From the NCBI GenBank assembly GCA_947385875.1, contig CANDMV010000013.1:1-44709 (forward strand): a DNA stretch of 44,709 nucleotides, read 5' to 3'. The translations under genes and the position numbers were made by a program. The stretch is from an uncultured Eubacterium sp. GTDB lineage: Bacteria; Bacillota; Clostridia; Lachnospirales; Lachnospiraceae. Below are positions 31,316-38,791 of the stretch, in pieces. Under the pieces are notes generated by a model. The model saw only the letters and a program-made list of their open reading frames with translations. It made no database searches and was not told the DNA's origin. How positions within the stretch are numbered: position 1 is the stretch's first letter; every line of letters begins with the position of its first letter.

Positions 31316-31474
31316 GTAACAGTTTGGCCCAGTACTTTGCATTAACTGCAAAGTACTGGGCGGGCATGATATAAGAACGTGTGAATTGTGTCAAGAGGGA
31401 ATTCGGCTTTTCGTCAAAGGGGAGCTTACAATGAATCGGATTCCGTGCAGTGAAACCGAAGGCTGAACCGTAAC
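31316..31474. mobile_element. Family-B element, 159 bp, with perfect 8-bp target duplication
   Basis: Starts GTAACAGTTTGGCC and ends GGCTGAACCGTAAC. TAAAAGAT stands on both sides (31308-31315 and 31475-31482). An inner palindrome CAGTACTTTGCA/TGCAAAGTACTG lies near the left end. No ORF. The longest copy in the window. Confidence 0.8.
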
Positions 31475-35051: not shown

Positions 35052-35080
35052 ATGAAAAAAAGTATCAGATGGGGGCAGTA

Positions 35081-36772
35081 ATGAAGAAGGCATTACCTGT
35101 TGGTATTGAAAATTTTGAAGATATAGTAAAATCTGGATATTACTATGTCGATAAGACAATGCTCATAAAAGAATTACTGGATTTAAAGGGGAAAGTAAAT
35201 CTGTTTACACGTCCAAGAAGATTTGGAAAGACATTGAATCTAAGTATGCTTCATTACTTTTTTGAGGATACAGGAGATGCGAAGAAAAATGAGGAGAACC
35301 AATCGCTCTTTCAAGGCTTTAAGATTATGGAGCAAGGCGAAAAATATACGCAGCATATGGGAGAATATCTGGTTATTGATTTAACGTTGAAGTCAGCCAA
35401 GCAGCCCACTTTTGAATCCTCGTATGAGAAGATGAAAAGAGCAATAGCAGACGAATTCCACAGGCATCAGTATATACTGGCGAATGAAAAATTGAATGAA
35501 GAGGATAAGAGGCTCTTTCAGAAGATTGCTGATCGGAAGGCAGAATATGATGATTATTCTGGTGCGTTGGAGTTCTTAAGTAAATGTCTTTATGAAGCGA
35601 CGGGTAAAAAGACGGTTATTCTGATAGATGAATATGATGTGCCGCTTGAGAATGCTTATTTCAGAGGATTCTATGAGCAAATGACGGATTTTATCCGTTC
35701 ATTATTTGAATCAGCGCTGAAGACGAATCATTATCTGCAGTTTGCTGTTATTACCGGGTGTCTGAGGATTTCAAAGGAAAGTATATTTACCGGACTGAAT
35801 CATGTGAATATGATATCTATACTTGATAAAAAATATAGTGAGCATTTTGGCTTTACAGAGCAGGAAGTGATCCAGATGATGTCTTATTATGAAGTGGAAA
35901 GCCGTTTTTCCACAATGAAAGAATGGTATGACGGATATTTGTTTGGAGACACAGAAGTGTATAATCCATGGAGCGTGATTAAGTTTTTATATGATCTATA
36001 TTCAGATGTGAATGCATTTCCGCATCCATACTGGATTAATACAAGTTCTAATGATATTATAAAAGACCTGATTACCAGAGCAGACAGGGAAACGAAGGGT
36101 CAGATTGAAACACTTTTAGGCGGCGGGATTTTAGAGATTCAGGTTTATGAAGAAGTTACCTACGAGGATGTGTACAGAAATGGTGAGAACTTGTGGAATT
36201 TCCTATATTTTACAGGATATCTTACAAAAGAGAGTGAATATTTTGAGGAATCCTCTATCTTTTTAAGGTCGCGTATACCTAATATAGAAGTAAAAACAAT
36301 TTATCAGAATACGATTCTGAACTGGCTGAAAGCCGCTATAAAGAAAGAAGATTTCCATGATTTGTACATGGCAATGGAAGAGGGGGATGCCCGGAGGATG
36401 ACGGATATATTAAATGGCCAGCTTTTCCGTACCATCAGCTTTTATGACAGTGCAGAGAACTTTTATCATGGATTCCTGACAGGAATATTAAGCCAGAGTG
36501 AGAATTATTTGGTGAAGTCTAACCGGGAGTCGGGGAATGGGCGTTCTGATCTTATGGTGAAAAGTCCGTCGTTGCGGGGAAGAGCGTTTGTTGTAGAAGT
36601 AAAGGTTTCGGATTCTGTGGATGATTTGGAAAATGATGCTAAGAAGGCACTGAAGCAGATTTATGATAAAAGATACATGGAAGAGCTGCGTGCGGAAGGG
36701 TATAAGAAGGTTGATTGTTATGGAATAGCATTTTTTCGGAAGGATTGTGAAGTTTGGTTTGGGGAAGGATAG
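35081..36772 (+). CDS. AAA-ATPase-like protein with C-terminal PD-(D/E)XK nuclease domain
   Basis: A 563-residue protein of a family very common in gut Bacteroidetes and Clostridia (AAA-ATPase-like plus PDDEXK_9). The N-terminus [15 protein letters not shown] and [15 protein letters not shown] is the family hallmark. Walker A is the variant RPRRFGKT (about 45-52) and Walker B is TVILIDEYD (about 182-190). The C-terminal nuclease core has the Asp in GRSDLMV and Glu-x-Lys in FVVEVKV (about 505), so catalytic residues are in place. ATG 35081 follows GGGGG; an ATG 12 nt upstream is an alternative. Biological role unproven; defence or mobile-element function has been suggested for relatives. Confidence 0.88.
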
Positions 36773-36782
36773 AAGTAAGATC

Positions 36783-36813
36783 GTAACAGTTCTGCCTAAG
36801 GCTGAACTGTTAC
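36783..36813. mobile_element. Family-B element, minimal 31-bp form with perfect 8-bp target duplication
   Basis: GTAACAGTTC ... GAACTGTTAC with a tiny centre (TGCCTAAGGCT): essentially two termini joined. GTAAGATC flanks it on both sides (36775-36782, 36814-36821). It lies ten bases after the AAA-ATPase stop and may act as its transcript-end hairpin. Confidence 0.8.
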
Positions 36814-36882
36814 GTAAGATCAGGGTTATTTTATATTTTTGGTTTCATATTAGAACATTCTATGATAAAATGATTTTATCTT

Positions 36883-36912
36883 TTGGAAAATGTTCAGTAG
36901 TATGTGTAAAAT
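36883..36912 (+). promoter_or_regulatory. Promoter of the 73-residue protein gene
   Basis: TTGGAA (36883-36888), 18-bp spacer, TAAAAT (36907-36912). The palindrome GATAAAATGATTTTATC lies just upstream at 36864-36880. Confidence 0.45.
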
Positions 36913-36990
36913 AAGTAAATGTAGAAATAGTATGCAATGGTATTAATTAGGCTAAAAGAAATTGCAGAAGATTTGAGGGAGGAAAAGCCG

Positions 36991-37212
36991 ATGATGTTAT
37001 TTCAGAAAAAGAAACAGGAAACATTAGATTATGATAAGGAGAATGAGAAGCCGATCTTAAGATGCAGTATCTGCAATGGGGAGAAGGTTGCTGGATTTAA
37101 GAATATAAATTCCGGTAAATTTCATGAAGTTATGTTTGTGCGTGATGAGAAAGATTTGGAAGAGTTTAGGGAGAAGTATGGTATCAGTGGTGAGATAATT
37201 AAAGAATATTAG
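36991..37212 (+). CDS. Small conserved-looking protein of unknown function (73 residues)
   Basis: Starts MMLFQKKKQETLDYDKEN and contains a single CxxC (RCSICNGEKVAGF), then an acidic helical end (DEKDLEEFREKYGI). GGGAGG lies 8 nt before ATG 36991, making this start much better than an upstream ATG at 36937. I have the impression of similar small proteins in Lachnospiraceae but no known function. The CxxC alone is too little to claim metal binding. Confidence 0.6.
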   Translation: MMLFQKKKQETLDYDKENEKPILRCSICNGEKVAGFKNINSGKFHEVMFVRDEKDLEEFREKYGISGEIIKEY

Positions 37213-38690: not shown

Positions 38691-38701
38691 GTAATAAATA
38701 G

Positions 38702-38791
38702 TTATCATTCAGTTCGGTATTTTGCATTTCCTGCAAAATATGTAAGAAGATGTGAAGGGTACCAAGAGGGAATCGAAGGTTGTACTGTAGC
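38702..38791. mobile_element. Family-B element, 90 bp, inserted between panB and panC
   Basis: AATAAATAG is repeated exactly on both sides (38693-38701 and 38792-38800). The element contains CAGTTCGG near its left end, a TTTTGCA/TGCAAAA dyad, AAGAGGGAATCG as in the 159-bp copy, and ends TACTGTAGC. Its termini are more worn than those at 31316. It separates two genes of one pathway. Confidence 0.65.

Follow-up and report, generated by a model that had tools for sequence, protein, structure and literature searches.

The 44,709-nucleotide stretch of DNA analysed here (the window), from an uncultured Eubacterium sp. of the Lachnospiraceae, holds at 36783-36813 a 31-bp near-palindrome bracketed by two perfect 8-bp repeats, in the layout GTAAGATC-GTAACAGTTCTGCCTAAGGCTGAACTGTTAC-GTAAGATC (duplication match 8/8). 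The element consists of a terminal GTAACAGTTCTGCC that faces a second terminus, GTAACAGTTCAGCC on the opposite strand, across a spacer of 3 bases. An initial annotation had read it as two fused transposon termini with almost nothing between, set in a perfect 8-bp target duplication and making a hairpin right after a stop codon. This description proved accurate throughout. The fusion is literal, at 31 bp with a 3-base loop; GTAAGATC is found on both sides; and strong folds are predicted for the 31-mer as RNA (-17.2 kcal/mol, z -6.5) and as DNA (-11.7, z -8.0), beginning 10 nt 3′ of the stop, since the upstream 567-aa ORF ends at 36772. Two observations support reading the termini as transposon ends: the duplications are 8 bp long, and an IS66-type transposon with similar termini is present in the same genus. 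The relaxed duplication scan of the window, in which about 0.9 chance pairs at ≥7/8 are expected, listed two further pairs that resemble chance pairs (other features in Table 1).

Table 1. Features at and around the 31-bp element, in window coordinates.
Feature	Position	Strand	Basis
Neighbour gene, AAA-ATPase-like with PD-(D/E)XK nuclease domain, 567 aa; bystander	35069..36772	+	ORF and domain reading
8-bp target duplication GTAAGATC, left copy	36775..36782	+	sequence comparison of flanks
31-bp element, fused transposon termini GTAACAGTTCTGCC-TAA-GGCTGAACTGTTAC, near-perfect hairpin	36783..36813	+	sequence, genome copies, folds
8-bp target duplication GTAAGATC, right copy	36814..36821	+	sequence comparison of flanks
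159-bp, longer relative from the same MITE family, flanked by the duplication TAAAAGAT (8/8)	31316..31474	+	duplication scan
91-bp relative from the same MITE family, diverged and reduced in length, flanked by the duplication AATAAATA (8/8)	38701..38791	+	duplication scan

The 31-mer recurs in its own genome, which was searched as a draft of 4.65 Mb in 282 contigs (93% complete). At ≤3 mismatches, 13 forward and 16 reverse matches mark 26 distinct places, and the recurrence is not due to chance since the backwards-sequence control gave 0 matches under the same conditions. Eight of these copies stand alone, with eight different 8-bp duplications (seven 8/8, one 7/8). Nine others form the right-hand terminus of MITEs of 144-195 bp, whose left ends carry a matching duplication (≥6/8), and the remaining nine are partial, truncated, nested or unplaced. 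BLAST with a 144-bp MITE copy returned at least 44 matches, a lower bound from which 40 candidates were scored; 19 of the 30 loci examined could be delimited with duplications of ≥6/8, nine of them 146 bp long, five 144 bp and the others 145-198 bp. These elements are short, non-coding and multicopy, with inverted ends and a fixed 8-bp target duplication, as MITEs are. The loops of the standalone copies (solos) read GAA, AAA or TAA and mostly match those of the MITE ends, as expected if the solos had many independent origins; the TAA loop of the window copy is absent from every MITE end seen.

Other repeats occur in the same genome. A second family has 24-bp ends, GTAACAGTTCAGATNNNGTGTTAC (e.g. 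L023:1919-2238), and a 320-bp element with such ends carries the perfect duplication TCAAAACG. At L016, L025, L031, L033 and L073, 31-mers often adjoin another repeat ending in TGTGAAAAGTAAC, which suggests nested insertion or target preference. A dispersed ~135-bp repeat, which occurs many times in same-genus genomes, has a standalone 31-mer at its left edge in one place (L023:1501-1531, G000:C37).

The structure of the MITE shows how a unit of exactly this size could arise. Its right end, GTAACAGTTCTGCC, includes a direct repeat of the left end, GTAACAGTTCAGCC; this inner copy and the left end are identical at 12-14 of 14 positions in eight delimited own-genome copies of the 31-mer-ended subtype, and an inner repeat matching the left end at ≥11/14 is kept in 13 of the 19 delimited MITEs. 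Direct repeats flanking the lost core, as expected of terminal-only elements, are present. Joining the left terminus to the inner copy anywhere within the shared 14 bases always yields 31 bp. Where the repeats differ, solos should carry either parental base in a legal order, and this was used as a crossover test, in which class counts were taken across solos regardless of kinship and are not independent events. At diagnostic position 11, five own solos carry the inner base T, three the left-end base A and none any other. Eisenbergiella solos gave 9 T and 0 A, which is also compatible with a clonal source. In G190, where the repeat has two mismatches and so two diagnostic sites, nine of ten solos fall into the three allowed classes (TT 4, GT 3, GA 2) and the forbidden TA was seen 0 times; the tenth is ambiguous in orientation and reads GT if reversed. 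The 12 solos of G087 show both parental junctions (ATGA 7, CTGA 4, one mutated). Long parents were read directly in both genomes: 187 bp and variants in G190 (11/13 regions) and 165 bp in G087 (1/7). In G190 the 187-bp MITE also occurs in intermediate sizes of 51, 81, 129 and 137 bp (L362-L365), as if it shrank stepwise. Elsewhere, a second direct repeat inside the 135-bp MITE, GGCAGAA / GGCTGAA, would fit a 69-bp form (L177, G015:C351).

Standalone loci were also compared with the same locus in other genomes. The comparison took in ten such loci of the Eisenbergiella group and related genomes, no close relative being known for the standalone hits L075, L080, L087, L099, L102 and L117; it was made mostly on draft metagenome assemblies, in which separate assemblies agree on sharp, base-exact states. 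Seven loci were readable, and the sister held a full MITE at three, a differently shortened form at three and an apparently empty site at one. The 31-bp form faces 135 bp in E. pullistercoris at L091, 152 bp at L103:5292 (flanks 99-100% identical) and 135 bp at L101 (flanks 97-98%). At L101 a third species has an empty, single-copy target, so that empty, full and 31-bp states are spread across three species; five further species carry no insertion at L103:5292, where the exact target is not conserved in them. Shortened counterparts were a 69-bp form at L071 (a remnant of 7 bp being left in a third species), a truncated 69-bp form at L073 and 58 bp, again a truncated 69-bp form, at L078. At L073 the solo is oriented in a way that simple deletion would not produce, whether from the 135-bp form or from the 69-bp one. 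L122:52, which looks empty in G014, is weakly readable (right flank only, the left not being alignable) and fits deletion and mobility alike. L104, L111 and L120 were uninformative because their flanks are rearranged or diverged in the compared genomes. A control pair, L100 and L107, has the full element in both genomes, with flanks of ~97%. For the window copy, no orthologous site spanning it was among the matches listed from 12 same-genus genomes; those listed for the eight own solos (13 genomes including their own), judged without aligning each, were one-sided or repeat-derived.

Based on these observations, we consider the window 31-mer to be the remnant of an earlier-inserted MITE that shrank via its built-in end repeats, with a probability of roughly 80%. 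Shrinkage after insertion is favoured because sister loci hold longer forms and the crossover classes are as this reading predicts. We propose that a non-autonomous MITE of ~144 bp whose ends are of the IS66 type (GTAAC...) landed after the stop codon, presumably moved by an IS66-type transposase and making an 8-bp duplication. Its left terminus would then have recombined with the inner copy, removing the ~110 bp between them together with one repeat. The likely route is slipped mispairing during replication, aided by the intervening hairpins; we infer slippage from what is known of deletion between short repeats. What remained would be a 'solo end' of 31 bp, still within the intact target duplication made at insertion, and the window copy itself probably took this path. 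The initial annotation had left the choice between transposition of the tiny unit and precise internal deletion; sister loci and crossover classes speak for deletion, and transposition is less favoured. It had also taken many identical 31-mers with different duplications as a sign of mobility. Eight such copies do exist, but they do not discriminate, because deletion at a built-in repeat gives the same picture. Conversely, a single copy with longer sister forms at its locus was to count against mobility: longer forms were found at several other loci.

Related short palindromes are widespread in the family. A search of the genome collection for the exact 31-mer pattern gave 63 stretches in other Lachnospiraceae, 14 of them standalone with duplications of ≥7/8, and short GTAAC palindromes of 20-50 bp occur in 58 of 299 Lachnospiraceae genomes; the backwards control never exceeded two per genome. 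This suggests that end-repeat deletion is a common route of MITE decay across the Lachnospiraceae. Among the places listed, palindrome lengths look genome-specific: 28 bp in G159, 29 bp in G112 and G190, 30 bp in G272, G233 and G126, and 42-44 bp in G087. All six palindromes inspected in G112 are ends of longer elements (shared flank); those of G272 and G233 are mixed or partly unassigned. Standalone rows with duplications of ≥6/8 number 9/12 in G190, 7/12 in G159 and 13/18 in G087, and a long partner was in place in 0 of these 42 rows, which deletion predicts for finished products and free movement predicts equally. Identical 29-mers were found at two loci.

Could the 28-31-bp unit itself be transposable, with a transposase acting in trans that pairs the facing ends and makes a new 8-bp duplication at each move? 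The eight own standalone copies with eight duplications would fit, as would the fixed, genome-specific lengths elsewhere (28, 29, 30, 31, 42 bp), the mostly standalone rows of G190, G159 and G087 and the identical 29-mers. However, at six of the seven loci that could be read in a sister, the same target is occupied by a longer form or by one shortened in another way, and the crossover classes are those predicted by deletion. In addition, synapsis by DDE transposases requires ends separated by some tens of base pairs, and we regard a mobile unit of this size as unlikely. A combined scheme, in which fused-end units of 28-31 bp formed repeatedly by core deletion in different Lachnospiraceae and were then amplified via IS66-type transposases in trans, is likewise improbable. 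If true, it would make them the smallest DNA transposons with target duplications known to us. Many related gut bacteria show this shrinkage as well, so the tiny form need not be able to jump by itself.

The core might also have been excised enzymatically, by a transposase or an excision enhancer such as IEE, and not by replication slippage. The product is exact at every locus, and IEE makes partial deletions within IS629, according to the portion of PMC9330008 that concerns it. The own genome has no IS66 transposase match, however, and the mixed crossover positions in imperfect repeats are easier to reconcile with homology-guided slippage than with a fixed cut, which leaves enzymatic removal with little likelihood. 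That the 31-mers are instead a dispersed regulatory hairpin, a terminator or operator, is barely credible. They have strong predicted folds, and seven of the eight solos in the own genome are not within an ORF of ≥240 nt, but a regulatory hairpin would not explain exact 8-bp duplications that differ at each site, the same 31-mer at the ends of longer elements or the empty site in G020. As a terminator, the window hairpin was rejected: it has no T-tract, and 0 terminator-like sites were detected in 36500-37200. An in-frame peptide role (31 + 8 = 39 bp) was rejected on the position of the own solos relative to ORFs and on the lengths in other genomes, which do not all keep frame.

For the parent MITE, the ends point to the IS66 family. 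The general rule for this family, an 8-bp duplication and ends beginning GTAA, is quoted in the part of PMC11946415 consulted, and both features are present here. The own draft genome (93% complete) gave 0 matches to PF03050, the IS66 transposase profile, and no parent with identical ends and such a transposase was found in it. Matches were obtained in nine of 20 other genomes searched, and the complete same-genus genome G001 has 72 IS66-family transposase matches. Its IS66 elements show at least three end types, GTAAGCGATGAA, GTAAACGGTA and GTAACTGTTCAG, the ends having been delimited for some copies from 20 wide stretches. One subgroup, of 1,803-1,804 bp with a single 481-aa ORF (read in one copy), has the ends GTAACTGTTCAG / GTAACTATTCAG, which are similar, not identical, to those of the MITE; its three delimited copies carry duplications of 8/8, 7/8 and 8/8. 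Given the similar ends and the same duplication length, an IS66-type parent of the MITE appears likely, if not proven.

These findings bear on how miniature elements are read. Many identical miniature copies, each in a different target duplication, would normally pass as proof of mobility, yet longer insertions that carry a direct repeat of their own end can give rise to such copies where they stand. Crossover position and sister loci offer a way to tell the two apart. No description of this MITE family was found in the literature searched, with most subscription journals outside its reach.

The closest precedent is the terminal-only PATEs of Haloquadratum walsbyi (HqIRS46, ISHwa23), as presented in the relevant sections of PMC3119063. 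There, too, the core is lost between near-terminal direct repeats, and at a given locus one strain may carry a short terminal-only form and another the full element; in those sections the authors likewise leave the mobility of the short form open. PATEs are described there as archaeal, IS605-type and 52 bp long, with 19-22-bp repeats and no target duplication. The elements described here are, in contrast, bacterial, 28-31 bp long and IS66-like at their ends, with 8-bp duplications and 10-14-bp repeats. When Tn10 is lost by nearly precise excision, the insertion site retains a scar. This excision resembles the process proposed here in being a deletion between short direct repeats within the transposon that inverted repeats help, as outlined in part of PMC12524634. 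Tn10, however, is a large composite transposon studied in the laboratory, whereas we describe recurrent natural products of a MITE family. With IS66-family ISs and their MITEs the elements share the 8-bp duplication and ends starting GTAA; unlike the ISs, the 31-bp element has no transposase, nor, by PF03050, does its own draft genome. Solo LTRs arise when recombination between the end repeats of a retroelement leaves one end between the target duplications. Here, similarly, solos are about as numerous as full parents (8 vs 9 in the own genome), although solo LTRs belong to an unrelated element class with far longer repeats and a different recombination route.
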